DNA of 64,000 nt from Lentilactobacillus diolivorans DSM 14421 (GTDB lineage Bacteria > Bacillota > Bacilli > Lactobacillales > Lactobacillaceae). The notes under the pieces are model-generated. The model saw nothing but the letters and a program-made list of their open reading frames with translations, did no database searches and had not been told where the DNA came from. Made by a program: the position numbers and the translations under genes. Positions within the stretch are counted from its first letter, which is position 1, and every line of letters begins with the position of its first letter. Where the stretch lies: positions 27,407 to 91,406 of the forward strand of contig NZ_AZEY01000023.1 in the NCBI RefSeq assembly GCF_001434255.1, read 5' to 3'. Shown here piece after piece: positions 1 through 17,793 of this stretch.

Positions 1-1147
1 TGCTTCATCAGCAGCATCTTCAGCTAGCGCTTCAAGTGCTAACTCATCAGCTGCTTCATCAGCATCAGCTTCTGCTGCTGCTCAATCAGCTGCTGCTCAA
101 TTGAACGGTAAGTGGGTTAAGGCTTCGGCTTTGCAAGCTACTTCTGCTTCAAGCTCAGCTACTCCAAATCCAGCTCCAGCATTAAATGCTGATCAAGTTG
201 GTGTAAAGGTAACTGATACAACTGGTAAAGTTCTTGGATACGCAGTCGCAACTAAGAACGGTTCAGATACAACAGCCGCACAAACACTTGGTAATCATTA
301 TGGTGCAGCTTTACTAACACCTTCTGATCTACAAAATGACACGGTAAATCAGGCATATGCTAGATTATTAGCAGATGCTAAGGTTACTGGCTACGGTTCA
401 TCATCATTAACATTGTCACAACTACAAGCTAACCAATCAGCCCTTAATGGTTCTTCATATGGTAAGTTTGCGACTATCGTGGTAGCTCCTGTTGCATCTA
501 CATCATTGTTGGATTCAGCAACATTCAATCTTGATAACTTTGGTTCGGCTGGCAATGCTGCCGCTAAGGATACTTCTGCATTACCATCTAATGCAGTTGT
601 TCAATTGAGCAATGGTACTTACACTACTGCCGGTTCATTAAGCGCATTGGCCGTTAATGCTTTGAAAGGTGCTCGTGGGACAAGTGCTACAAATGCACAA
701 ATTCAGACTGCAGTGAAAGCTGCTGGTCTTGACACTATCACCTTTGTTTATGCAAATAATGTCCAAGACGCTTCAGCTCAAAAGAGTTTAACTAACCCTT
801 CAACTGCACAAAACGTTCCTGCTGGAAACGGATATTTGACATTTGACTCACTTAATGGAAACGGAAATAACGCAACTATTAAGAACAATGTTTATGGTGG
901 TGTTGGTAGTGTAACTCCTACTTTCCAAGCTATCCAAGCAACTATCACTGTATCAAATGACACCGCAACCTTCACTTCAACAAATACCACTAATGCTGCT
1001 GCTTTGAACACAGCAACATTTGGAAACGACAACAAAGCAACGTTTAAGTATGATAATACCAAGACTCAATACGCTAACTTTGCTCAAACTGCTGCTGGTT
1101 CAAACTTCAATACCTTCTATTCATTAGGCATCAAGAACTCAAAGTAA
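1..1147 (+). CDS. S-layer glycoprotein, 5' end outside window
   Basis: Open from base 2 to the stop at 1145-1147, giving 381 visible residues; the start lies off the left edge. The visible part begins with a Ser/Ala-rich tract (bases 2-100) followed by a segment with motifs [12 protein letters not shown] and [14 protein letters not shown], then a Thr/Ala/Asn-rich body without cysteines, as expected of lactobacillar S-layer proteins. S-A-S-S-A-S-type tracts are the O-glucosylation site of the Lentilactobacillus buchneri and kefiri S-layer proteins, so this tract is probably glycosylated. Bases 5-204 are repeated exactly, inverted, at 5882-6081 inside a second S-layer gene; beyond base 204 the two proteins differ but keep the same architecture (both have a VTGYGS...L motif and a YGK-TI-VAP motif). 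A hairpin terminator follows. S-layer assignment is from composition and motifs; no anchoring domain is visible in this part. Confidence 0.82.
   Translation, partial: ASSAASSASASSANSSAASSASASAAAQSAAAQLNGKWVKASALQATSASSSATPNPAPALNADQVGVKVTDTTGKVLGYAVATKNGSDTTAAQTLGNHYGAALLTPSDLQNDTVNQAYARLLADAKVTGYGSSSLTLSQLQANQSALNGSSYGKFATIVVAPVASTSLLDSATFNLDNFGSAGNAAAKDTSALPSNAVVQLSNGTYTTAGSLSALAVNALKGARGTSATNAQIQTAVKAAGLDTITFVYANNVQDASAQKSLTNPSTAQNVPAGNGYLTFDSLNGNGNNATIKNNVYGGVGSVTPTFQAIQATITVSNDTATFTSTNTTNAAALNTATFGNDNKATFKYDNTKTQYANFAQTAAGSNFNTFYSLGIKNSK
5..204. repeat. Left arm of perfect 200-bp inverted repeat
   Basis: Bases 5-204 match the reverse complement of 5882-6081 without a mismatch when read base by base. 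Identity ends sharply at 204/205 (left continues aaaggt, right cassette continues tcatat); bases 2-4 also differ. Both arms are coding in the same codon phase (Ser/Ala tract plus the start of the mature S-layer body). Identity may resume to the left of the window. Confidence 0.93.
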
Positions 1148-1194
1148 TTTTTAGTTGAAATTACTAAGTAACTTGATTCATTCTGAAATAAATT

Positions 1195-1249
1195 AAAGAG
1201 TCCTAAGATATTTAATGAGCAAGTCTCAGCAAGTATCTTGGGCTCTTTT
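1195..1249 (+). terminator. Terminator of the left S-layer gene
   Basis: Long stem with arms at 1195-1210 and 1234-1249, ending in gctcttttg, 47 bases after the S-layer stop codon. One or two mismatches in the stem; typical intrinsic terminator. Confidence 0.8.
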
Positions 1250-1280
1250 GTCGTTAATAGTGTTTTGAAATTTGATTTTA

Positions 1281-1329
1281 AAAAATGAGTTGATATTTCC
1301 AAAGATTGCGGAAATATCAACTCATTTTT
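1281..1329. terminator. Perfect 20-bp stem terminator between S-layer gene and glycosyltransferase operon
   Basis: Arms 1281-1300 and 1310-1329 are exactly complementary and flanked by A-runs on the left and T-runs on the right, so it can act in both directions. It lies 58 bases past the end of the minus-strand glycosyltransferase operon and probably ends that transcript. Confidence 0.85.
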
Positions 1330-1386
1330 AGCTATCAGTATTTATTGCTAATATTCAATAAAATCATTAAACAGAACTTGAAATCG

Positions 1387-2919
1387 TTATTTCACACCAA
1401 CAGCGCTTCGCCATTTCTTCCAAACTTTCGGATAGCTATAATTCTTGGCAGATTCATAAGCATTTTCGCTCATTCTTTGAAGCATAGCGTCATTAGTTAA
1501 CAATGTAATAATATGTTGCGCAAAGCCATACAGATCTCCCGGTTGAACCAAGAAACCATTAACTTTATCATCAATAATTTCAGCTGGACCAAAGTTGGTA
1601 TCAAATGCAACCAATGGTAATCCATGGCCTAACGCTTCAACCATTGCTAGTGGGAAAGCATCTTGGTGAGCTGCACCCGCAAAGATCTTAGATTGATCAT
1701 AAAGTGGATCAATTGGATTGGAATAACCAGAAATGTGAATGTTATTCTGCATACCTAACTGATTAATTAAGTCTTTAAGTGAGTTAACAAAGTCACCATC
1801 ACCGAAGCCACGAATATCAAGCACCGCATCGGGAACTTGTGGGACAACTAACGCAAATGCCCGGATCAGATTATCCACGCCCTTATCGACACCTAACCGA
1901 CCAGCATAGATAACTTGGTTACCCTGCTTATTTAATGGTGATAAATGTTCAGCTTTCAATTCTTTATTATCAATGGCGGCACCAGGAATCACACTGATTG
2001 GAATATTTCGGCCCTTACCCTTTAACCGCTTCAAACGAATTCGTAACTGACGGGCTTGATTATCCGTCATGACAATTAAACCATCTAATTTATCCAAGTG
2101 ATTAAACACTTCTTGATAGCTAGGTTCGAGTTCAGAATGAATCAGATCATCTGGATTAGCTGCGTGAAGAATCGGGAAGAAGACGTATTTCTTTGCCTTG
2201 CTCTTCATGCGAATCAATGGAATATCCGCAACACCTGGTCGATCAGCAATAAAGGTATTTTCTTCATGATTTTGTTCGTTAATTTCATCTAAGAAGAACG
2301 TAAACAGATCTTCTTCTGTATTGAAGTAATAATCTGAACCTTTGTAGTTGATCAAGTGAATATTGAAGATTACTTTACCCTTACCATCTTCAGTAATTTC
2401 CCAATATCGCTCCAAGGCACGGGTACCGTCTAAATGATAAAAGATTTCTGCCAATGGATCGCCATCGAAGTCTAAAAATTGGGTACATGATTTGAATCCC
2501 CGTGAATCCCAAATAACGCGATTAGCAATATTACTAAAGGCATCATAATGTTCAACGGAAGCAATTTCACCTACTCGAGTTGGTGTATGATGAATTGTTT
2601 CGGCCAATCGGCCACCTTGAAGGGCTTCGGAAACATTGCTGTTATAGTGCATTTGATAACTGATCGGAATGTTTAAGTCTGAAACACTGGATGATTTTTC
2701 CTTAACATCTGTGGTTCCTTGGAAATAATCATACATATTAAGAACATCATTTTGGTTTAAACCAAAGTTGGCTGCATTTAGATGAAGCATACTGTCGTAA
2801 TCACGAGTCACGATCTTTGAATGAACTCGCTCGTGTTTAAACAACGCTTGGCGTTTAAATTCAATATGTTCAACACTGGAATTTAATGCTTTAATATACT
2901 GATTTAAAAAGTAATACAT
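1387..2919 (-). CDS. GT4-type glycosyltransferase (GtfA/GtfB- or TagE-like), second gene of pair
   Basis: 510 residues. The N-terminal part (about 1-230, starting MYYFLNQY) resembles the extension of poly(glycerol-phosphate) alpha-glucosyltransferases and of the GtfA/GtfB protein O-glycosyltransferases of lactobacilli. The C-terminal half is a GT-B fold: a glycine-rich IYAGRLGVDKG near residue 335 and the E-x7-E donor-binding region (MVEALGHGLPLVAFDTNFGPAE) near 425-450. The start follows GAGGTG, which lies within the end of the upstream paralogue; the two genes are 2 bases apart and probably coupled. In Lactiplantibacillus plantarum two such paralogues are both needed to O-glycosylate secreted proteins. 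Position between two S-layer genes suggests S-layer glycosylation here; teichoic-acid glucosylation is the alternative. Confidence 0.82.
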   Translation of the reverse strand: MYYFLNQYIKALNSSVEHIEFKRQALFKHERVHSKIVTRDYDSMLHLNAANFGLNQNDVLNMYDYFQGTTDVKEKSSSVSDLNIPISYQMHYNSNVSEALQGGRLAETIHHTPTRVGEIASVEHYDAFSNIANRVIWDSRGFKSCTQFLDFDGDPLAEIFYHLDGTRALERYWEITEDGKGKVIFNIHLINYKGSDYYFNTEEDLFTFFLDEINEQNHEENTFIADRPGVADIPLIRMKSKAKKYVFFPILHAANPDDLIHSELEPSYQEVFNHLDKLDGLIVMTDNQARQLRIRLKRLKGKGRNIPISVIPGAAIDNKELKAEHLSPLNKQGNQVIYAGRLGVDKGVDNLIRAFALVVPQVPDAVLDIRGFGDGDFVNSLKDLINQLGMQNNIHISGYSNPIDPLYDQSKIFAGAAHQDAFPLAMVEALGHGLPLVAFDTNFGPAEIIDDKVNGFLVQPGDLYGFAQHIITLLTNDAMLQRMSENAYESAKNYSYPKVWKKWRSAVGVK

Positions 2920-2921
2920 GG

Positions 2922-4478
2922 TTACACCTCGAGACTTTCTGGAATTTTGGCATTCTTCTTAGCATCTTTGATCAGTGGTTGCCATTTTTGCCAAATTGCA
3001 TCGGATGAATAATTCCAACTATCTTTATAGGCATTTTCACTAAAGGTTTCCAATTTCTTCGGATCAGAAAGTAGCTCAATAATCCGATCAGCTAATTGAT
3101 CAACATTGCGGTTTTCAACTAAGTAGCCGTCTTTGCCATCATTGACAACATCACGAGGACCATACTTGATATCAGTTGCGACAATCGGCAAGCCATGAGC
3201 TTGGGCTTCAACTAATGTCAGTGGCAGTCCTTCCGCTCGGCTTGGCAAGATGAGTAATTGGGCTGAATCATAAACAGCTCCAATATCTTTTGTGTAGTCA
3301 TGGAAAGTAATATCATTATTCAAGCCCAACTGGTTAACTAAATTAGCCAGTGTTTTATCGTAATCACCATTACTGTAGCCCCAGAAATCAAGGGTTGCAT
3401 CCGGAACTGCTTTGATCACTTTAGGCCATGCTTGAATTAAAATATCCTGTTGCTTTTCGTCAGATAGCCGAGCAACCATAATAACTGATTTCGACTTTCG
3501 AGTCGTCCATTTAACGTGTGGCTTATCTAGAAGTTTCTGGTCGGTAACGGCACCAGGGATCATATAAACGTTAGGCTTCTCTTTGCCAAAGCGCTCAGTA
3601 AAGTCATCGTATTGCCATGGCGTAAGGGTTGCAATGCCATTCCAACGTTTCCGGTTTTCCAACATGTACTCATAATTATAGTTAAATGATGAATGCATGT
3701 GGTCAGTCCCAGAGTTAACGTGATTATTATGTAGGTACATAACAGAATAAATTGGTGTTTCCATTTTTTGAACAGAGTAAGCCAATTCATAAGCTCGATC
3801 ACAAATAATGGTATTGGCTTCGCCCGTTGAAAGATTTAGTTGGTCTAACCAGAAGGTTGTTAAGTCCTCAAATGTCGCAAAGTCATAGTCATGACCCTTA
3901 TAGTTAATTAACTGATGAAGGGAAGTTTCTGTTTCACCGTCACCACGTGGATGCGTGAACCTTTGAATAACGGGTTGGCCATCAGGATTAAGGATCTGCT
4001 CGGAAACCAACTTGGTTCCATATGAATAAAATTGTTCCAAAGCAGCGAAACCACGGGTGTCATAGCGAACCATGCGAACAGGTCGGCCGTTAAATCCAGA
4101 GTATTGAACCCAGTCGAGACGTTTGTCTTTCTCGGAACGAGTCCCAACGATCATAACCAGTTGGTCGCCTTGATAGACATCGGTCTTGGTTTTATCTTTT
4201 TCTGGTTTTAACGTATAGCCCTTAGGCATTGGTAAATCTTCAATGGTTAACTTACGTGGCTTAAAGCTCATCGTTCCTTGGAAAAAATCAAACAGATTTA
4301 CAAATTGATCTTCAGAAATTCCCGCATCGGCAATGACATCATGAATGTTCATTGAGAATATCCGGGTAATAATCTTGGCAGGAACATGTTTTTCATTAAA
4401 CAATCTTAGTCGTTTAATTTCAGCATGTTCAATACCAGACTTTTTGAAACTGATATTGTCATCGTAGAAAAAATACAT
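2922..4478 (-). CDS. GT4-type glycosyltransferase (GtfA/GtfB- or TagE-like), first gene of pair
   Basis: 518 residues, paralogue of the following gene with the same two-part layout. N-terminal extension about 1-240 (MYFFYDDNISFKKSG). C-terminal GT-B catalytic part contains IMVARLSDEKQQDILIQAW near 330-350, LLILPSRAEGLPLTLVEAQ near 420, and HGLPIVATDIKYGPRDVV after it. The start has AAGGAGAG nine bases upstream. The promoter should lie in 4500-4700. As it heads the pair and is divergent enough from its partner, they may form a heteromeric enzyme like GtfA-GtfB. No accessory SecA2/SecY2 genes are present, so this is not the Gram-positive accessory Sec glycosylation locus. Substrate (S-layer protein or teichoic acid) is inferred only from context. 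Confidence 0.82.
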   Translation of the reverse strand: MYFFYDDNISFKKSGIEHAEIKRLRLFNEKHVPAKIITRIFSMNIHDVIADAGISEDQFVNLFDFFQGTMSFKPRKLTIEDLPMPKGYTLKPEKDKTKTDVYQGDQLVMIVGTRSEKDKRLDWVQYSGFNGRPVRMVRYDTRGFAALEQFYSYGTKLVSEQILNPDGQPVIQRFTHPRGDGETETSLHQLINYKGHDYDFATFEDLTTFWLDQLNLSTGEANTIICDRAYELAYSVQKMETPIYSVMYLHNNHVNSGTDHMHSSFNYNYEYMLENRKRWNGIATLTPWQYDDFTERFGKEKPNVYMIPGAVTDQKLLDKPHVKWTTRKSKSVIMVARLSDEKQQDILIQAWPKVIKAVPDATLDFWGYSNGDYDKTLANLVNQLGLNNDITFHDYTKDIGAVYDSAQLLILPSRAEGLPLTLVEAQAHGLPIVATDIKYGPRDVVNDGKDGYLVENRNVDQLADRIIELLSDPKKLETFSENAYKDSWNYSSDAIWQKWQPLIKDAKKNAKIPESLEV

Positions 4479-4703
4479 TTATAACTCTCCTTATCATAAC
4501 TACAGAGTATATTCAGGTATAAAAGTGACTGAAATAATATTATAAGTGTATCATATTGAAGACGCTTGTAGGCCTTGGTGGGGGGTGATACGGAAAGATT
4601 TAAAGTAAAAGTAATATACGGTATTTAGAGAAGGCAACAATGATGAGGTAGGTCAATGTTTTTTGAGATTAAAATGGGTGACTTGCACGATTCTACGTTA
4701 TAT

Positions 4704-4829
4704 ATTATTGTATTGTTGACCAATGACGCCATGCTTCAGAGAATGAGCGAAAATGTTTATGAATCTGCTAAAGATTATGGTTATCCGAAAGTTTGGAAGA
4801 AGTGGCGCAACGCGATTGGTGTGAAATAG
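4704..4829 (+). pseudogene. 3' relic of a third glycosyltransferase gene
   Basis: The plus strand encodes IIVLLTNDAMLQRMSENVY followed by a segment ending VWKKWRNAIGVK and a TAG stop. This corresponds residue for residue to the C-terminus of the 510-aa glycosyltransferase at 1387-2919, with a few substitutions. Homology stops upstream of 4704, so only about 41 codons remain. It converges on the right-hand S-layer cassette just as the intact 510-aa gene converges on the left one, so the inner ends of the inverted segment are themselves an inverted repeat of glycosyltransferase tails. Confidence 0.85.
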
Positions 4830-4853
4830 AATTACTATTTCATATTCATAATA

Positions 4854-4889
4854 AAAAAACTTCCCTCAACAAATGAGCGGAAGTTTTTT
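4854..4889 (+). terminator. Terminator after the glycosyltransferase relic
   Basis: Arms aaaaaacttcc and ggaagtttttt around a 14-base loop, 25 bases after the relic stop codon. A- and T-runs on both sides mean it could also act on the minus strand. Confidence 0.75.
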
Positions 4890-4900
4890 GAAAATTTATG

Positions 4901-4948
4901 AAAATAAAACGGTGCCCCCTCTGTTCAAGAGAAGCACCATTTTATTTA
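4901..4948 (-). terminator. Terminator of the right S-layer cassette
   Basis: Arms at 4901-4915 and 4934-4948 (core GGTGC/GCACC with A/T-rich extension) lie about 40 bases past the minus-strand S-layer stop at 4990. On the minus strand the stem is followed by a T-rich run. Confidence 0.75.
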
Positions 4949-4989
4949 ATATTAAATACTAATATTTACTTCTTGCTTAATCAACTTTA

Positions 4990-6369
4990 TTACTTAATGT
5001 TTGCTGCATAAAGTTGTGCAAAGTTCATGCTTGATGCACTACCATTTTGAGTTATCTGGAATGAGTTAGACTTAGCAACATTATAGTTAAGTTGCAATGT
5101 TTGGTTAGTAACACCAAACTTGCTTCCTGCAGCTGGTCCAAATTCATTAGTGACGTTTCCGTTCTTATCAAGAGTCAATGCGTAGGCACTAACTTTAGTT
5201 GCAGAATTACTTGAAGCACTTGAAAGTGCATCGTCACGGCTCAGTGTTGACTTAACAACGAAGAATTGCTTACCATAAAGATCACTCTTAACAGTACCAT
5301 TGCTATTAAGATCAGCACTTGTCAAAAATGCACCATCAGTGTTGTTCCAAACTAGGTAAACCGTGTCTGCATTGACAGACTTCAGATCGGATGCTAATGA
5401 ATCAGCGGTCAAAGTGGTATCAACTGTTCCCTTTACTGCGCCTAATACAGAGTTCTTTAGACTTCCAAAGGTTGTGTTAGCTGTGCCAGCATAAATAGCG
5501 GCATTGTTACCTGGTTGTTGAGTTCCTGTATTGCTAGTTGTTCCAGCGGCACCAGGTGCGTCAACGTTAAGAGTCAATGAAGTTGCGAAAGCAGCTTGGT
5601 TAGCTGGTGCAACAGTGATTGTGGTATATTTACCATAAGTAGCACCTTGAACAGCAGAAGCATTAGCAGCTAATTGACTGTTAGTCAAAGCAGCTGAACC
5701 ATACCCAGTTACTGAAGCACGAGTTAATAATGATTGATAGTCATTAGCAGTAGCTGGTGTGTTAGTTAAGCTAACAAGTCCAGGATAAGCAGCTGTAATA
5801 GTTTGAGTACCGGATGTTTCATTGGAATTCTTGGTTAAGACAACATATTTATCAACTTTGTTATCAGTACTTACAATATGAACACCAACTTGATCAGCAT
5901 TTAATGCTGGAGCTGGATTTGGAGTAGCTGAGCTTGAAGCAGAAGTAGCTTGCAAAGCCGAAGCCTTAACCCACTTACCGTTCAATTGAGCAGCAGCTGA
6001 TTGAGCAGCAGCAGAAGCTGATGCTGATGAAGCAGCTGATGAGTTAGCACTTGAAGCGCTAGCTGAAGATGCTGCTGATGAGTTAGCACTTGAAGCACTA
6101 GCAGATGAAGCAGGAGTAGCTGAAAGTTGATACCAAGTGTCGCCTTCACGAGTAGTGGTCTTAGCGGCCGTTACAGTGAATGTGGCGCCAGAGAATGGTG
6201 TCGTAGTCGTGATAACCTTCTTGTCAGAAGTAGTAGCACGGCCAACCTTGTATTGTGACCAAGCAGGTTCGTTGTATGCCAAGTTGTCAGCATCTGAGCC
6301 TGGAGTCTTCAAAGTAAAGGTTGCTGATGAAGCAGGACTTCCAACAGTTGGATACTTTTTTTGAGGCAA
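4990..6369 (-). pseudogene. Silent S-layer cassette, 5'-truncated
   Basis: 459 residues from a weak TTG at 6369, but this is not a native start: the two codons directly upstream are TGA and TAA, there is no ribosome site and no signal peptide, and the frame opens at the border with an unrelated AT-rich gene near 6355-6370. The readable product has a mature-type N-terminal region (about residues 5-95, [11 protein letters not shown]), a Ser/Ala tract longer than that of the left copy, the shared [12 protein letters not shown] block, and a different C-terminal body (about residues 165-459). It can only be expressed if recombined with a full-length S-layer gene. The shared 200-bp block with the left gene would do this in frame. 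A frozen relic is the alternative. Confidence 0.8.
5882..6081. repeat. Right arm of perfect 200-bp inverted repeat
   Basis: Partner of the arm at 5-204. Recombination between the arms would invert about 5.7 kb (205-5881) and exchange the 3' coding parts of the two S-layer genes in frame. No recombinase gene is visible in the window. Confidence 0.93.
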
Positions 6370-6383
6370 TTATCAAGATTAAA

Positions 6384-7964
6384 ATGTTGGATAAGATAAC
6401 GGCTTCCCTTTTTCGCCAAATTCTTACCAAGCTTGGTTCACGAATACTTCCGATTGTGTCGACACTAGATCCAATAAAAAGTTTATATAAAAAACAGATT
6501 GCCAATGAATTTCTGAGGGATCCTATGAATGTTGAAATTATATTGAATTCAATAATTGATTCCAACAAGAAAGAGCAACGAATAAATATTAATAATTTTC
6601 TGGACAAAGATCAGCGCGATGAATTATTTCAACAATATATTGATTCTCCAAAAGCAAAACAGAGTTATATCCATCTCATTGCTATCGAACGATTTAAACC
6701 AGATGTTGATATATCTACAAAATATAATGCAAGTAAACGGGAAGCACAGATTATTACAAGGAGTATAAAGAATGATCCATTTACATTTACGACGACTGTC
6801 GAATCTAGTATAGTTTCGATGGATCGTATTGTAGAAGAAAATATATCTAATGATAACAAGGATAGTAGACTATTATTGCAATTTAACGAAAAGTGGCTTA
6901 ATAAATTTGTGGACTATTCAACAATTTTACAAAATCTTATTTATGTATTCGGTATCGTAGATAATAATTTAAAATTTACAGGTATTTCTAAAAATGAATC
7001 AGGAGGTTTTTTTGAGCGCTTTCTTACTTTATGGGGAAAAAATGAGTATCATAATGGTGAGGCTTTTAAGAACAGTGAAATGGTTCTGACATCAAAAATG
7101 CAACTATATATCAAATTTTTAAGACAACGAGGAATAAAGTTTGAAAGTGTAATTAAATGGTATTTTGATACGTATTTACCTAAATATCTTGGAATAAAAG
7201 GGTTTTACTTCGGGAGATTTAATTTTGAAGATTCGTTACGTAGCAGGATAATGATGCTTTGTGTCAACTTTCAAAGAATTTTGAAGGAATATCAACTTTA
7301 TTCAGAAAGTGGTGAGATTAATTCTGAAATTGTTGATCAAATGAAAGTTCCTCATCTCAATGAGCTAAAAAGTCTTTGTGATAAGAAGTATGTAATTTCT
7401 GGAGAAAAGATGCAATCGGCTATGCAACAAATATTTTCAGATCAATCTTCTTTTGGTCACATTAGTAATGGCTTATCATTCCAAAATGAATTATTAAAAG
7501 GAGTTCCAGTTTCGTGTTTCAAAAATTTTAACGTTAAGGAGTTGAATTGGTTAACACGGAATGGCTTTTTGACAATTTTGAAAGGTAAAGTTTACATCTT
7601 TTCAGAGGACTATTTAGTAATGAGAGATTTATTTTACAATGATGAAATAAACTATTTTTGGAAGGATTCAGATACTAGAGAATGCATTGATTCTAAGGTT
7701 AAGTTAGGACAATTGTCTTTTAGAAACAACTTATTCACAAGAAAGGAGTCTGATTACATTGATTATTACTATGGCAGTCGCTTTTCCAATGGATTGGGGA
7801 TTAGGAATAAATATTTACATGGATCGGCTGAAAACATTTCAAAGTCTCAAGACGAGCAAAACTATTGCGTGTTAATTTATTTATTCTGTTTGTTAATTAT
7901 AAAAATTAATGAGGAATTCGATCATTCTCAGACTTTAAATGAAAATTCGTTGATTATTATTTAA
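6384..7964 (+). CDS. HEPN-motif protein, probably 5'-truncated defence-type gene
   Basis: Open from inside the S-layer cassette (first in-frame codon 6321), but codons before about 6370 belong to the S-layer reverse strand. The first credible ATG is 6384 (MLDKITASLFRQ), without a ribosome site, so the native start is probably lost. The product (about 526 residues) is rich in Lys, Asn, Ile and Phe. Near the C-terminus it has GLGIRNKYLHGSAENIS, an R-x4-H motif of the HEPN ribonuclease/abortive-infection type (Apea-like or DUF4209-like), followed by a hydrophobic helix. Base composition is markedly more AT-rich than the neighbouring operons, which suggests acquisition. No partner nucleotidyltransferase or antitoxin is recognisable next to it. 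I do not recognise the N-terminal 480 residues. Confidence 0.5.
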   Translation: MLDKITASLFRQILTKLGSRILPIVSTLDPIKSLYKKQIANEFLRDPMNVEIILNSIIDSNKKEQRININNFLDKDQRDELFQQYIDSPKAKQSYIHLIAIERFKPDVDISTKYNASKREAQIITRSIKNDPFTFTTTVESSIVSMDRIVEENISNDNKDSRLLLQFNEKWLNKFVDYSTILQNLIYVFGIVDNNLKFTGISKNESGGFFERFLTLWGKNEYHNGEAFKNSEMVLTSKMQLYIKFLRQRGIKFESVIKWYFDTYLPKYLGIKGFYFGRFNFEDSLRSRIMMLCVNFQRILKEYQLYSESGEINSEIVDQMKVPHLNELKSLCDKKYVISGEKMQSAMQQIFSDQSSFGHISNGLSFQNELLKGVPVSCFKNFNVKELNWLTRNGFLTILKGKVYIFSEDYLVMRDLFYNDEINYFWKDSDTRECIDSKVKLGQLSFRNNLFTRKESDYIDYYYGSRFSNGLGIRNKYLHGSAENISKSQDEQNYCVLIYLFCLLIIKINEEFDHSQTLNENSLIII

Positions 7965-9648: not shown

Positions 9649-9660
9649 ATTCCAGAATAT

Positions 9661-9711
9661 AAGCCCCCTAACGTGATATTCCTGAATTTGGAATATCACG
9701 TTAGGGGGCTT
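9661..9711. terminator. Perfect 22-bp stem terminator
   Basis: Arms 9661-9682 and 9690-9711 are exactly complementary (GCCCCCTAACGTGATATTCC core) around a 7-base loop, 12 bases after the AraC stop. GC-rich base of the stem makes it a strong, probably bidirectional structure between convergent genes. Confidence 0.85.
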
Positions 9712-9715
9712 ATAT

Positions 9716-9819
9716 GGCCGGGATCTGCTTGGTTGCACACGTTTTAGCTAGGTAGCAATAACCACAAGGCCGGGATCTGCTTGGCTGCACACGTTTCAGC
9801 AAAGTAACAATAACCACAA
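9716..9819. repeat. Two tandem 52-bp repeats
   Basis: Copies 9716-9767 and 9768-9819 both read ggccgggatctgcttgg...ataaccacaa, with six mismatches clustered in the middle. A degenerate ggccagtgattggctt start of a third copy follows. They lie between the convergent araC gene and the arabinofuranosidase gene and encode nothing obvious. Could be a decayed mobile repeat or an RNA-processing element. Confidence 0.85.
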
Positions 9820-12843: not shown

Positions 12844-15204
12844 TTACAATTGACTAAATAATTGCTTGTTAGTATCGAAGTTAACAGTGAGACTCGTTGA
12901 ATTAAATTGCTTACCGGTATCTAAATCGATATAGCGATGAATATAAGGGGCAAAGCTGGTCACTTCATAATGGTTATCGGCATGCTTTTTAACAGCTCCG
13001 TTAATCGCTTGGTAGTTGCCGTTAACATCCGCGTATAGATAGGTCGTTTGACCAAAGCCGTTTAAGTAGGCCACGAGTTCTTCGCCCATGTCCCAATCAT
13101 CTTCGCCGGTGTAGCCGTCCGGAAATAGTCGGGCAAAGATACCGCCATCCGAAGCAAAGATGGATTGGCCAAACCGATTGCGGGATAAATCCGGGCGGTT
13201 CAGATTAGGGCCGGCAATGCTGTAAGTGGAAGCCGCCTCGCCGGGTTGAAGTTTCCGGTCGGTCGCGGTTGCATTGGCATCATACATATAAAGCACCGCG
13301 TTGGTTGCCCGGTAGGCGGCTTGAACCAAAGCCACATCGCCTAACTGTTCGCCGGTGATCTGAGCTGCCGCGGCAGTGACACCACCCCATAGTGAGTGAA
13401 TCATATAGGAGAGGGCTTCCCACCAGCGATCCGGGCTCTGAGATCTGAAATCATTGCTAAAGCCGATGTTGGCTTTCAATAATTCACCATAGATCTTGGC
13501 CCCGGATTGGTGATGGGTTAATGCCAATGCCGCCGCGGCGGGGCCAAAGCCGGCATTGTCAAAGAAGTGTTCGGTCATAGCAGCCAGCAGTTGGGGGCTG
13601 TTTTTTTCAACTCGTTCGGTAGCGGTTTGCCAAGCCTGGGAGATTTCAGAATATTCTTTGTCCAGACCGGCCATTTTAACGTCCTTCAAGAGGTCTTCAA
13701 TGTACATGAAGTAAACGCCCAACATTTGAGCCTCTTCTTTACCCCGTTGGTTATCATGCAAATCGGGGTTGACCCGAACATCGAAGACTTCAGCCGCCCA
13801 CGCGAGGTATTCTTTGGGGGTGTGAAGCTTTAGGGCATCTGCCGGACATTTAGATAATAGATAGAATAAATGGGCAATGTATTCCAGGTCCATGACGCGG
13901 TAAAAGTCACCATATAATTTGCGGGGATGTTTGAAGTCGCCATCGACGAACCATTTTGGCCGGACATAGTTAACCGCACTGGTTTCGACTTCTTGGATTT
14001 TTTGGGCTGAGTCTGAAATGCTGGCATCGAGTAGGCATTCCTGAAGAATGAACGTCATCTTGCCAATTGACTCACCTTGATTGGAAACGGGGCTAAAACT
14101 ATATGGGATTTTGCCAGATTTTCCAGTATAGGAATGATCACACAAGTAGTCAGCGCGGTCGCAAAGTAATTTTGAAATTGATGCCATGACGTTGAAGACG
14201 CCGATGTCGGTGGTGCCGTCAGTAAAGGTCACGATCAATTCATGTTCGCCGAGTCCTTTGGGTTGGTAGTTCAAACTGCCATTGGTGAAATCGGCTGTTA
14301 AGTCTTCTTCAAGCGTCTGTTGCGACCGAACTTTGATGGTGGCGACTTGCTGATTGGCGGCTGGTGAGATTCGAATGGTTTGTTTTTGATCGGCTTGGAC
14401 GAGTGGTTCAAATTGAATGTAGGGATGACCAAGCTGTTGGGCAACGTGATAGAAGTCTGCTTGATCTGTATATGATTGGAGCACGAAGTCCCATGAACGG
14501 GCTTGGTTAGCGGACAGGTTGATCGCGGTTTGGGGATAAATCCAATCGTGATGGGGGCGCTGATCATCTGAATAGCCGCCAGCCAGAACAAATTCATGAA
14601 AAAGCATGCCGTCTAATGAAGGGGAAACATTTTCAAAAAAGCGGTTCGTGTATTCGTTGTAGGTGCCGACAGAAAGGACTTCGCCGCCAATTTGATAAAC
14701 TCCCAGGTTGGGCGCGGTATTATCTCGTCTTACTGCGGCCAGCTTAGTATAGTTGGGCGAGATGCTTGGAAAGACGGCGGCTGATTGATTCGCGTTTCGA
14801 TACACATCTTTGTCCCGGAACATCACGTAGGCCAGGCTGATCCAAATGCCAAAGTCGTTGATCGTTATCGGATTTGAGCCGGTATTTTCAAGCTGAATCT
14901 GCCATTTTAGACGATCATTGACGAGTTCGAATGTTTCGGAAACTTTAACGTTATCAAAGGCAAAGGTGAGCTGACTTTGGTCGTTGGTTTTGTGAATGAT
15001 CGGTGTTTGGTCAATGCTTCGATAGGGATGGCCATTGACGGTGATGTGAAATTCACCAAATAGTTTGTCTTCATCCTGATAATTAAGTGACTTGAGATAG
15101 TTGGGATCAATGACCCAATTCATGTTGGTGGAGTCATCATTGAGCCTTAACCCGGTTATTGCACCCCGGCTATTTTGCTGGATAGTGAAATAATTGGATT
15201 TCAT
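12844..15204 (-). CDS. Putative glycoside hydrolase, uncharacterised (DUF5695-like)
   Basis: 786 residues when started at the ATG at 15204 (MKSNYFTIQQ), chosen because GAGGAGG lies ten bases upstream; a further in-frame ATG at 15222 overlaps that ribosome site. Residues about 1-340 look like a beta-sandwich (aromatic-rich, IQLENTGSNPITINDFGIW), residues about 370-780 are helical and resemble an (alpha/alpha)-barrel with HSLWGGVTAAAA and DWDMGEELVAYLNGFG. No signal peptide, so cytoplasmic. Its place as first gene before a GPH symporter and GH51 enzyme strongly suggests it cleaves the backbone or another linkage of an arabinose-containing oligosaccharide. I recall a similar fold in DUF5695 proteins but cannot confirm the family; catalytic residues are not assigned. 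Confidence 0.6.
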   Translation of the reverse strand: MKSNYFTIQQNSRGAITGLRLNDDSTNMNWVIDPNYLKSLNYQDEDKLFGEFHITVNGHPYRSIDQTPIIHKTNDQSQLTFAFDNVKVSETFELVNDRLKWQIQLENTGSNPITINDFGIWISLAYVMFRDKDVYRNANQSAAVFPSISPNYTKLAAVRRDNTAPNLGVYQIGGEVLSVGTYNEYTNRFFENVSPSLDGMLFHEFVLAGGYSDDQRPHHDWIYPQTAINLSANQARSWDFVLQSYTDQADFYHVAQQLGHPYIQFEPLVQADQKQTIRISPAANQQVATIKVRSQQTLEEDLTADFTNGSLNYQPKGLGEHELIVTFTDGTTDIGVFNVMASISKLLCDRADYLCDHSYTGKSGKIPYSFSPVSNQGESIGKMTFILQECLLDASISDSAQKIQEVETSAVNYVRPKWFVDGDFKHPRKLYGDFYRVMDLEYIAHLFYLLSKCPADALKLHTPKEYLAWAAEVFDVRVNPDLHDNQRGKEEAQMLGVYFMYIEDLLKDVKMAGLDKEYSEISQAWQTATERVEKNSPQLLAAMTEHFFDNAGFGPAAAALALTHHQSGAKIYGELLKANIGFSNDFRSQSPDRWWEALSYMIHSLWGGVTAAAAQITGEQLGDVALVQAAYRATNAVLYMYDANATATDRKLQPGEAASTYSIAGPNLNRPDLSRNRFGQSIFASDGGIFARLFPDGYTGEDDWDMGEELVAYLNGFGQTTYLYADVNGNYQAINGAVKKHADNHYEVTSFAPYIHRYIDLDTGKQFNSTSLTVNFDTNKQLFSQL

Positions 15205-15711
15205 TAGTGTGAACCTCCTCATTGATAATCGACGTTTTGATATTCTGTAATCGCTTACGTATACAGAATACCGGGCTTTAGGCGATTATGAAATGGGTTA
15301 AACACTAAAGCGTTTACAAAAAATCAACCAGAGTTTGTTTAAAAAAACACATTTGGTTTGTGTTATTTAACAAATTTGGGTGTGGGTATTTGGTCTGGCT
15401 TTGTGAAGGATGGGTGGTGCTTAGGTGTTATCGAGGTAATATTGGTTTTTGAAAGTTAACAAGACGTTTGTACTATTTCACAGAATTTGGGTGTTGAATT
15501 TTTTGAAATTAGGCGTTTTAAGTAACTTCTAAACGAAATTTTGTGTTGGAATGTTATTCAGGTTACTGCTAATCCGGAACAATTTGTATTGGTTGTCATC
15601 GGCGGGTGAAGTTAATTAAGGCTAACTGTACGATTTGATTATTACGTGGCGAAGTAATTCTCATGAAGTGTTAGGATTAATAATGGTTAATAATTAACGG
15701 AGGTATATAAA
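15205..15711. other. Divergent intergenic region
   Basis: About 500 bases between the minus-strand arabinose operon and the plus-strand surface protein gene. The right side of the arabinose operon carries the operator region described separately. Bases 15330-15700 are AT-rich and should contain the promoter of the surface protein gene; no convincing -35/-10 pair was singled out. Confidence 0.5.
15244..15318 (-). promoter_or_regulatory. Operator/cre-like region of the arabinose operon
   Basis: An inverted repeat ATTCTGTA/TACAGAAT spans 15244-15269 upstream of the 786-aa gene and encloses TGTAATCGCTTACG (15246-15259), one base off the cre consensus TGWAANCGNTNWCA. A second cre-like TGTAAACGCTTTAG lies on the minus strand at 15305-15318. 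This suggests catabolite repression by CcpA plus an arabinose-specific regulator. Binding is inferred. Confidence 0.55.
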
Positions 15712-17793
15712 TTGAAAAAAATTTTATTGAGTATCACAATAGTAATTTGCTTTTCATTGATTCCGTTTTTTAGTACTTATCAGAAAAGCGGCAGTTTGTT
15801 TATTCAAAGCGTATATGCTGATAGTAATGAGCAAGATGAAACACAGGATTCTCACAGCAATAACAGTGTTACCAATCCTGTTAATTGGAATAATTGGCAA
15901 AAAAATCCATTGCTTAATTTTAATTTTGACGACGACTTAAATATGGTAGAGGGAAACGAGAATATACAAGATATACTTTCGATAGATGCAGCGTGGGCTT
16001 CCACAGGTGACACTGAGGCAGAGGCGTCAATTAGTGATGATGTTACCTTCTATCATTACCTGGTTCTTGCATCAACAAAAGATATCGCTAGTCTGCCTGC
16101 CACTTTAGGCAATATTGCGATTGACGGCACACTTATTCCAAATAGTGACATTAAGTTAAATCAATTTTCAGCCGGAAAATCTTTGGGAACTTCGTTTTCT
16201 TTCCCTCTAAAAAAGTATATGGTTAATCCAGTGTCTATTAGCACAAAATCGGAAAATAAAGATAATCATATACAATCAACTATTCGAATTAGATATATAG
16301 ATCCGAATCATTTGAAGGCGTCATCTGGCACGCTAAACGAGAATTATTTAAATAATGACTATCTAAGTGTAACTGATCCACAAATAGTTCGAATTTTCTA
16401 CAAGGATTCGAAAACTGGTGATGACATAGCTAAACCGACTGTTTTGGGAGAAAACAAGTCATATCAATATGAGTTAGGGGATATTAAGGCCCCAGAAATT
16501 AAAGGGTACACTTTAAAAACAGCTAATAGTATTGAATACCAAACGGCAACAGTATCAAAAGAAAAAATTATTGATGCATTAAATTCAGCTATTAAGAACA
16601 TTCCCGGGGTAAATATTAATGACTCTGAAATTAAAACGATGAGTGAGGAATATGATCAACTGTTTGGAAAAATTCCAACAAGATCCCTATTAAATTATAT
16701 TGACCTTTCAAAGGCTTTTTCACTTGGAATTGGCACCAAAGATCCTAATGCTGGTCTGAATTTTTCTCTTGCTTTGTATGAACTTATTCAGTCTTCTGAC
16801 AAGCCGTTTAGCGTTTATAACTATCTGCAAAATGGTACTACAAAATATAGAAATGGAAATGTAATTAGAGATATCAAACTCGACACGATACCACAAGCGA
16901 TTACTTTTTGGTATAACAAGGATTCACCAACATCAACTACACCAGCAACTCCATCGACAACAAATACGTCAGCAGTGCCGAACGATTCAACCTCTAGTAC
17001 TACTTCAAATTCATCATCATCTTCAACTTCCAGTACTAGTCCAAGTACGCCAACTCCATCTTCATCGTCCAGTTCTTCAAACAATACCAGCTTGCCAAGT
17101 TATGCAGCTGCAAAGGGAACGGTAGTTTACCCCATCAACAAGATTGGCCTGTACAAGTCAACCAAGTTCTCAGCTACTAAGCGAAGTGCCTGGTATACGA
17201 AGAAGCCAAGAGTTTATCGGCCAATGTTTGTTGTTACCGGCTATAAGCGATCTGACAATGGGGCTTTGAAATACCGAGTTCAAGACGTTAATCACACTTC
17301 TAAGACGAATGGTAAGACGGGATACATTACCGCCAGTCAGAAGTATGTGTGTCCAGTTTATTATGCTGCCAAGCATTCAACCGTTACCGTGATTAATCCA
17401 CGGGGCGTGAACGCTTATCGTAAAGCTAACTTGACCAAGAAAGCTAGAAATTATCGACAGGGGACGGTCTTACATGTTAAACGAATTGTGTCGCATAATC
17501 TCACCACTCGATACGTTTTAACCAATGGCGACTATATTACCGCTAACCGGAAATTGGTTAATATGGGGCGTCACCAACAAGTGAAATCAGTTAAAACTAA
17601 ACGAACAGTTAATCGGTACAGCAATGCTAACTTCACCAAAAAGAATCATGCGATTGCAAAGAATCGGGCATTAAAAGTTTACGGATATGATTATTCTCAA
17701 AGTAATAATGTTACGAAGCACGGTGTTTTACGTTATCGAGTAGCTGGTGGGTATATTACTGCCAATACAAAATATGTTCGTGCTTATAAATAG
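15712..17793 (+). CDS. Secreted surface protein with two DUF5776 modules
   Basis: 693 residues from TTG, chosen because CGGAGG lies nine bases upstream. Signal peptide about 1-36 (hydrophobic core LLSITIVICFSLIPFF, cleavage likely near VYA-DSN). The body (about 40-400) carries a MucBP-like stretch (RIFYKDSKTGDDIAKPTV near residue 225). A Ser/Thr/Pro-rich linker (about 405-462) leads to two DUF5776 modules (about 465-575 and 576-693), each basic and Tyr-rich; typical motifs are RPMFVVTGYKRS and HNLTTRYVL. No LPxTG sorting signal is present, so the basic C-terminal modules probably hold the protein to the wall non-covalently. Function of the body is unknown. Paralogue of the DUF5776 part of the 38873 gene, which also has two modules. 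Confidence 0.8.
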   Translation: MKKILLSITIVICFSLIPFFSTYQKSGSLFIQSVYADSNEQDETQDSHSNNSVTNPVNWNNWQKNPLLNFNFDDDLNMVEGNENIQDILSIDAAWASTGDTEAEASISDDVTFYHYLVLASTKDIASLPATLGNIAIDGTLIPNSDIKLNQFSAGKSLGTSFSFPLKKYMVNPVSISTKSENKDNHIQSTIRIRYIDPNHLKASSGTLNENYLNNDYLSVTDPQIVRIFYKDSKTGDDIAKPTVLGENKSYQYELGDIKAPEIKGYTLKTANSIEYQTATVSKEKIIDALNSAIKNIPGVNINDSEIKTMSEEYDQLFGKIPTRSLLNYIDLSKAFSLGIGTKDPNAGLNFSLALYELIQSSDKPFSVYNYLQNGTTKYRNGNVIRDIKLDTIPQAITFWYNKDSPTSTTPATPSTTNTSAVPNDSTSSTTSNSSSSSTSSTSPSTPTPSSSSSSSNNTSLPSYAAAKGTVVYPINKIGLYKSTKFSATKRSAWYTKKPRVYRPMFVVTGYKRSDNGALKYRVQDVNHTSKTNGKTGYITASQKYVCPVYYAAKHSTVTVINPRGVNAYRKANLTKKARNYRQGTVLHVKRIVSHNLTTRYVLTNGDYITANRKLVNMGRHQQVKSVKTKRTVNRYSNANFTKKNHAIAKNRALKVYGYDYSQSNNVTKHGVLRYRVAGGYITANTKYVRAYK

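Follow-up and report, generated by a model that had tools for sequence, protein, structure and literature searches.

Does a pair of S-layer genes that face each other in Lentilactobacillus diolivorans DSM 14421, one complete and the other without a beginning, form a switch of the cell surface? The question arose from a stretch of 64,000 nt of this genome (NCBI RefSeq assembly GCF_001434255.1, contig NZ_AZEY01000023.1, here C67, positions 27407-91406), called the window below. A first-pass annotation, made from the sequence alone, had reported there an exact 200-bp inverted repeat shared by two convergent S-layer genes, and had proposed that the segment bounded by the two copies inverts. We conclude that the locus is probably a two-state surface switch, in which recombination between the arms of the repeat would invert the segment and exchange the C-terminal domain made under a single promoter. 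The anatomy of this cassette and its reading frames are established, in the window as well as in a second genome of the genus; the inversion itself we infer from them.

The arms of the inverted repeat

A search of the window for repeats recovered positions 5-204 and 5882-6081 as inverted copies over 200 nt, with 100% complementarity. Self-BLAST of the window, with a threshold of at least 60 nt and at least 75% identity, gave three inverted pairs, the arms at 100% and two others at 86.6% and 82.4%. Both arms are read in the same coding phase, and directly inside them identity drops to 47% over the first 60 nt (ungapped) and to 38% over 300 nt. The exactness, the shared phase and the abrupt inner edge of the arms were therefore as first reported. 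Their extent had to be revised. The window opens where a run of 121 N, located inside the left S-layer gene, ends, and beyond this gap 56 nt of the left-flank stretch (L003 9824-9879, where the window position is the L003 position minus 10000) are an exact inverted match to window 6282-6337. Because of this additional match, the right arm is taken to be 5882-6337, that is 456 nt. For the left arm, 256 nt were verified as identical to the right arm, and about 200 nt fall in the gap, which is drawn as 121 N.

One N-terminus and two alternative C-termini

The left S-layer gene (C67:26793-28553) has a complete N-terminus, situated off the window to the left as had been supposed: its ATG is at L003 9387, 164 amino acids precede the gap, and its start resembles a signal peptide, as judged by eye. 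The right gene is headless, with codons 1-145 absent. On a profile of the N-terminal domain (247 positions, built from 40 S-layer genes of the genus) it matches positions 144-224 only, which agrees with the earlier claim that it has no start of its own. When the gap was filled in silico with the right arm, the fusion of the N-terminus, the arm and C1, the C-terminal domain of the assembled orientation, was open over 611 amino acids. When the segment was inverted in silico, the fusion with C2, the C-terminal domain of the headless gene, was open over 594 amino acids, and the expectation that inversion would join the N-terminus in frame to the alternative end was thus borne out.

C1 and C2 share 35% identity over 233 aligned residues while the arms are exact copies, and therefore either the arms were homogenised after the C-termini had diverged, or the ends were exchanged. 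The genome gave 13 matches to the N-terminal domain: 12 of these are sites where an N-terminus is present, the window gene among them, and one is a 20-residue stretch in the headless copy. The closest of the other 11 places has only 77% protein identity, so that exact identity is special to the arms.

The N-terminus, the C1 part and the C2 part had no Pfam or NCBIfam match at E 0.01, and the headless protein had no sequence relative in the PDB at E 0.1. AlphaFold models, each built from a 5-sequence alignment, reached a pLDDT of 66.6 for C1 and 68.8 for C2; the order of elements is similar over roughly the first 180 residues, a resemblance that we did not use as evidence. The C2 model, the only one searched, matched no fold of the PDB (best Foldseek E 3.7; 0 of 165 chains at Z of at least 2). 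Promoter-like sites in the region were no more numerous than in shuffled sequences, so a promoter of the headless gene is neither shown nor excluded. Compared with a relative in L. parabuchneri, C2 differs by 0.36, 0.30 and 0.55 at codon positions 1, 2 and 3, a pattern that hints weakly at constraint on the reading frame, and most of this divergence may predate silencing.

The switch that we propose would work as follows. The left gene would supply the start, the signal peptide and an N-terminal domain of the wall-binding type, while a 5.7-kb segment, with an arm of up to 456 nt at either end and both arms in one phase, would hold the two alternative C-terminal domains tail to tail. A crossover between these arms, for which ordinary homologous recombination of the RecA type is the most likely mechanism, would invert the segment and swap the C-terminal domain, leaving promoter and anchor untouched; in the assembled orientation C2 would be silent. 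The exchanged domain would be the exposed, lattice-forming part of the protein. We call it the outer lattice domain because, in L. brevis SlpA, the N-terminal part binds the wall and the C-terminal part self-assembles (accessible part of PMC2571106).

Recurrence in the genus

S-layer N-termini are present in all 24 genomes of the genus that were searched, one per species. We fetched 100 regions around matches to S-layer genes and glycosyltransferases, the matches being listed down to about E 6e-35, and four more. Of the 100 regions, 11 proved to contain inverted copies at least 60 nt long and at least 80% identical, both copies being located in S-layer genes only in L105 and L176. In L111 one arm lies in such a gene, and in L184, L188, L192, L198, L199, L209, L220 and L223 neither does. 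Among the regions fetched, the layout of the cassette occurs in 4 of the 24 genomes: it is directly visible in the window and in genome G002, and is suggested by contig ends in L. kisonensis DSM 19906 (G008) and L. raoultii (G016).

G002 is assembled as a single contig of 2,095,860 bases. There (L105), a full S-layer gene at 14364-15878 on the minus strand converges with a headless reading frame at 12879-14177 on the plus strand, which provides an alternative end of about 270 codons. The arms measure 468 nt with one mismatch (467/468), are in frame, and both products are open, with 504 and 514 amino acids. The G002 arm has 43% identity to the window arm over 67 aligned residues, and covers codons 88-244. 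The first-pass annotation had placed the recombination point in a glycosylated Ser/Ala tract. This applies to the window, where the arm (codons 146-298) includes the tract, and not to G002, whose arm has no Ser/Ala-rich tract; the tract is therefore not essential. Its glycosylation would be expected by analogy with the S-layers of L. buchneri and L. kefiri (PMC5893755, as far as accessible).

In L. kisonensis, the contig with the N-terminus stops at codon 76; the 31 nt at its end recur, inverted, as the opening 31 nt of contig C52, the rest of which is unrelated DNA. At each end of another contig (C73, 5412 bp) lies a headless C-terminus, and the two ends have a 31-nt terminus in common. In L. 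raoultii, the contig with the N-terminus and a site beside an N run in C5 have exactly 127 nt in common, ending at the same base, and C20 (7409 bp) carries a headless C-terminus at either end together with a glycosyltransferase pair. The contig breaks in both species would be the trace of an inverted repeat that collapsed in short-read assembly, if the contigs are linked as their ends suggest; such breaks indicate a repeat, not an inversion. When the interior of these arms was sought with the G002 arm protein, the matches listed were other S-layer genes, and no contig was recognised as a collapsed arm.

Two further species were considered and not counted. The contigs of L. rapi (G017) and L. 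farraginis (G004) end in the orthologous S-layer gene, at codons 24-26, and were left out because a 29-nt pattern near the end is single in each genome. L. farraginis C54 (L160) bears one headless C-terminus and a glycosyltransferase pair with no second S-layer end, and is a possible fifth case. As a separate observation, an S-layer gene lies 1.57-1.71 kb from the contig end in G007 (C33), G012 (C14), G013 (C16) and G022 (C1), suggesting another repeat upstream.

A scan for headless genes over 105 fetched stretches found 16 of 196 S-layer reading frames without the profile start. Only in L003 and L105 were they convergent with a full gene and provided with near-identical arms, the scan being blind to cases at contig ends. 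The remaining headless frames look like frameshifts, split genes or cut ends, as judged from the listing. Of 51 named loci, 49 lacked any inverted pair that reached 60 nt and 85% identity, and L017 and L051 had one each (73 and 92 nt, 87-88%). The pair in L176 (G018, C8, 5786-14793) consists of two full-length convergent S-layer genes with a 759-nt inverted repeat at 82% and a glycosyltransferase between them. As in the window cassette, the genes face each other with inverted similarity; unlike there, both have an N-terminus and the arms have diverged, which gives the impression of two genes and not of a headless cassette.

Proposed homologous recombination and its alternatives

Could the segment be inverted by a site-specific invertase acting at a short site within the arms? 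Many bacterial inversion switches are driven in this way, and five matches to tyrosine recombinases (PF00589) were found in the genome. However, the search for serine recombinases (PF00239) recovered no full-length gene in the genome but three fragments on contig C60, two of them with stops, and C67 itself has no match to either PF00239 or PF00589, the two families searched. The arms contain no convincing dyad: the longest in the window arm has half-sites of 7 bp, which was equalled in 58 of 200 shuffles, and the G002 arm has none of at least 7 bp. Moreover, arms that measure hundreds of bases and differ from species to species do not suggest a fixed site, and would fit homologous recombination. 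We consider an invertase improbable.

Several observations weigh against a switch by inversion. The left arm holds the gap, and the inner gap edge reads TGCT where the right arm predicts TAAC, a disagreement of four bases; either the Ser/Ala tract may not have the same number of repeats in the two arms, or assembly may have gone wrong at the gap edge. A 121-N gap placed exactly in the left arm, with such a disagreement at its edge, also speaks for an assembly artefact, in which an S-layer repeat, collapsed or chimeric, would have been put together the wrong way round. This we regard as very improbable, since the same architecture is found in the single-contig G002, since the ends of contigs point to it in two other assemblies, and since the right-side junction with the neighbouring gene, PDC-S56, is continuous sequence. 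Those contig ends have weaknesses of their own: each common end in L. kisonensis is 31 nt long, no more than an assembly overlap, and in L. raoultii the ends of C20 have no common terminus, its place between the arms being presumed. Finally, in 20 of the 24 genomes, most of them fragmented drafts, the fetched regions contained no cassette.

Gene conversion without inversion could also keep the arms identical, which again counts against the switch. The headless copy would then be a silent donor, and the C-terminus would change rarely or never, with no regular inversion. Conversion homogenises arms equally well, and the 12 places with an S-layer N-terminus could trade sequence. In addition, genome G023 contains a 139-nt, 99.3% inverted copy of an S-layer N-terminal region (L111 13800-13938 and 15499-15637), followed immediately by a stop; this is an arm without an alternative end behind it. 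We nevertheless judge a pure donor role unlikely, albeit worth keeping in mind. The partners in the window and in G002 are inverted, adjacent and provided with intact ends (296 codons in the window, about 270 in G002), none of which would be required by conversion confined to the arms, and a crossover between inverted repeats inverts the intervening DNA. Exchange of the C-terminal domain by inversion is the explanation that we prefer.

Differences among cassettes and their origin

The four cassettes are far from uniform. The arm starts at codon 36 in L. raoultii, 67 in L. kisonensis, 88 in G002 and 146 in the window, and the outer flanks of the arms differ among the four species. Glycosyltransferases are carried in the window and in L. 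raoultii; the 1.8-kb segment of G002 has none, and L. kisonensis (C73, L112 1565-3846) carries instead a protein with a MACPF/perforin domain and a WHH-nuclease protein. The window gene, L. kisonensis and L. raoultii have upstream neighbours in common (a YbaK-like gene, a sigma-factor-like gene and one or two small genes). In several other species these neighbours occur next to S-layer genes that have no cassette, and none of them was found in the G002 region.

The C-terminal types are apparently reassorted among cassettes, to judge from sequence comparison. The expressed C-terminus of G002 is 51% identical over 270 residues to one end of L. raoultii (Ca), the other end of which (Cb) is 44% identical over 324 residues to the Ca end of L. 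kisonensis; the Cb end of L. kisonensis has 32% identity to both C1 and C2, over 201 and 209 residues. Either the cassettes originated on several occasions, or a single inverted pair in an ancestor underwent erosion and was filled anew. It is quite possible, although we do not yet lean towards it, that headless inverted cassettes arose or were rebuilt repeatedly, and that the genus would run a convergent, recombination-only exchange of coat domains, fed by its reserve of S-layer paralogues.

On two short contigs, L123 (C103 of G000, the window genome, 1794-5039) and L161 (G004, C49, 138-2901), an S-layer gene and a gene for a tyrosine integrase with an Arm-DNA-binding domain are arranged divergently; these S-layer genes are on or beside a mobile element.

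The segment between the arms and its outer flank

The features of the locus are collected in Table 1.

Table 1. Features of the S-layer cassette and its right flank in the window
Feature	Position	Strand	Remarks
Left arm, inner 200 nt, in the expressed S-layer gene	5..204	+	Remainder left of the window: L003 9824-9879 exact, then 121-N gap
C1, the C-terminal domain that the assembled orientation links to the intact N-terminus	206..1147	+	ATG off the window, at C67:26793
Terminator-like hairpin and T run after C1	1195..1248	+	-25.0 kcal/mol, z -4.5 (1165-1255)
Long terminator-like hairpin, downstream of the 510-aa glycosyltransferase	1281..1329	-	-32.9 kcal/mol, z -6.2 (1270-1385)
Glycosyltransferase, 510 aa, group 1 family	1387..2919	-	Resembles SdgA/SdgB/GtfA, below curated cut-offs
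Glycosyltransferase, 518 aa, same type as the 510-aa one	2922..4478	-	Relatives 82-85% identical in G004, G014 and G016
Remnant of a second copy of the 510-aa glycosyltransferase, inverted	4662..4828	+	Last 55 codons, 71% amino acid identity
Hairpin separating the remnant from C2, T runs on either strand	4854..4889	.	z -5.8 (+) and -4.4 (-) for 4845-4935
C2, alternative C-terminal domain of the headless S-layer gene	4990..5881	-	Open for 296 codons
Right arm (456 nt), spanning codons 146-298 once the gene is rejoined, Ser/Ala-rich tract included	5882..6337	-	Matches the left arm exactly at 5882-6081 and 6282-6337
Candidate phage-defence gene PDC-S56 (PADLOC), apparently 5'-truncated	6338..7964	+	Matched from profile position 97-101 of 649, E 8e-101

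The glycosyltransferases are related to SdgA/SdgB/GtfA and, by this test, are not members of that family, the best score being 244 bits for a curated cut-off of 800. The inverted glycosyltransferase remnant is a trace of an older inverted duplication. Terminator-like hairpins stand between each S-layer end and the glycosyltransferases; a simple terminator scan did not list them, and found no more sites in the region than in shuffles. We considered a polar effect, in which the glycosyltransferases, lying behind C2 in the same direction after inversion, might be co-transcribed with it, and do not claim it: hairpins with T runs follow both S-layer ends.

The PDC-S56 gene adjoins the outer end of the right arm, and has a G+C content of 0.30 (0.39 for the window). 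It was the only match to this profile in a search of the whole genome, where the missing first positions of the profile, about 100, were not found elsewhere. Its boundary with the arm is likely a rearrangement junction, although the gene may be a naturally shorter member of the family.

Further along the window, a perfect hairpin of 26 bp with a 7-nt loop stands beside a 52-nt tandem duplication at 90% identity (9657-9819). Positions 15712-41218 encode several large, secreted-looking proteins with a common C-terminal repeat region, in direct repeats 76-92% identical, which resembles the DUF5776 protein upstream of the S-layer gene (L003 48-1850).

Significance and comparison with known systems

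An earlier report of such a switch in Lentilactobacillus or the buchneri group was not found in the open-access literature, subscription journals lying mostly outside this coverage; within that scope, the first-pass statement that none had been described still holds. In the accessible parts of three papers that speak of inversion, the word refers to sugar configuration (PMC2943079), to a genome rearrangement of L. kefiranofaciens (PMC5634458) and to L. acidophilus (PMC5893755).

The S-layer is the outermost surface of food- and gut-associated lactobacilli, and a plausible target of phages and host lectins. If the switch operates as proposed, the anchor would be kept while the other domain is swapped, and coat identity would be mixed within one culture. 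This would explain the breaks inside the S-layer gene in several short-read assemblies of the genus, and would make the locus a simple case in which variation driven by recombination, with no invertase devoted to it, can be tested. Two forms should then be reckoned with when strains of the genus are typed or its individual S-layer proteins are studied.

Switching of S-layer antigens is RecA dependent in Campylobacter fetus, where sapA changes by inversion between repeated coding sequence, and a promoter-bearing segment moves among several cassettes; these proteins are not known to be related to those of the window. The window differs in having one pair, with the alternative ends inside the segment. 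S-layer switching in Campylobacter is also mentioned in the accessible text of PMC7858073.

The closest parallel is slpA/slpB of L. acidophilus, where one S-layer gene is active and the other silent, and a chromosomal inversion changes which of them is expressed (Boot et al. 1996 as cited in PMC7858073; PMC5893755 and PMC6176008; all consulted in their accessible parts). In common with it, the window and G002 have two S-layer genes in opposite orientation on one segment, and an in-frame shared sequence, which here lies inside the coding region (codons 146-298, and 88-244 in G002). Unlike slpA/slpB, the window would exchange the C-terminal part only, between arms within the coding region. The ends are also reversed, as the wall-binding part of the L. 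acidophilus S-layer is C-terminal (PMC5893755, same limit). L. brevis SlpA has the two-domain layout with N-terminal wall binding that is proposed for the window gene; it differs in that the accessible part of PMC2571106 describes no invertible cassette. S-layer switching by inversion is thus already established in L. acidophilus, and what would be new in the cassette described here is the swap of a C-terminal domain through arms placed inside the coding region.

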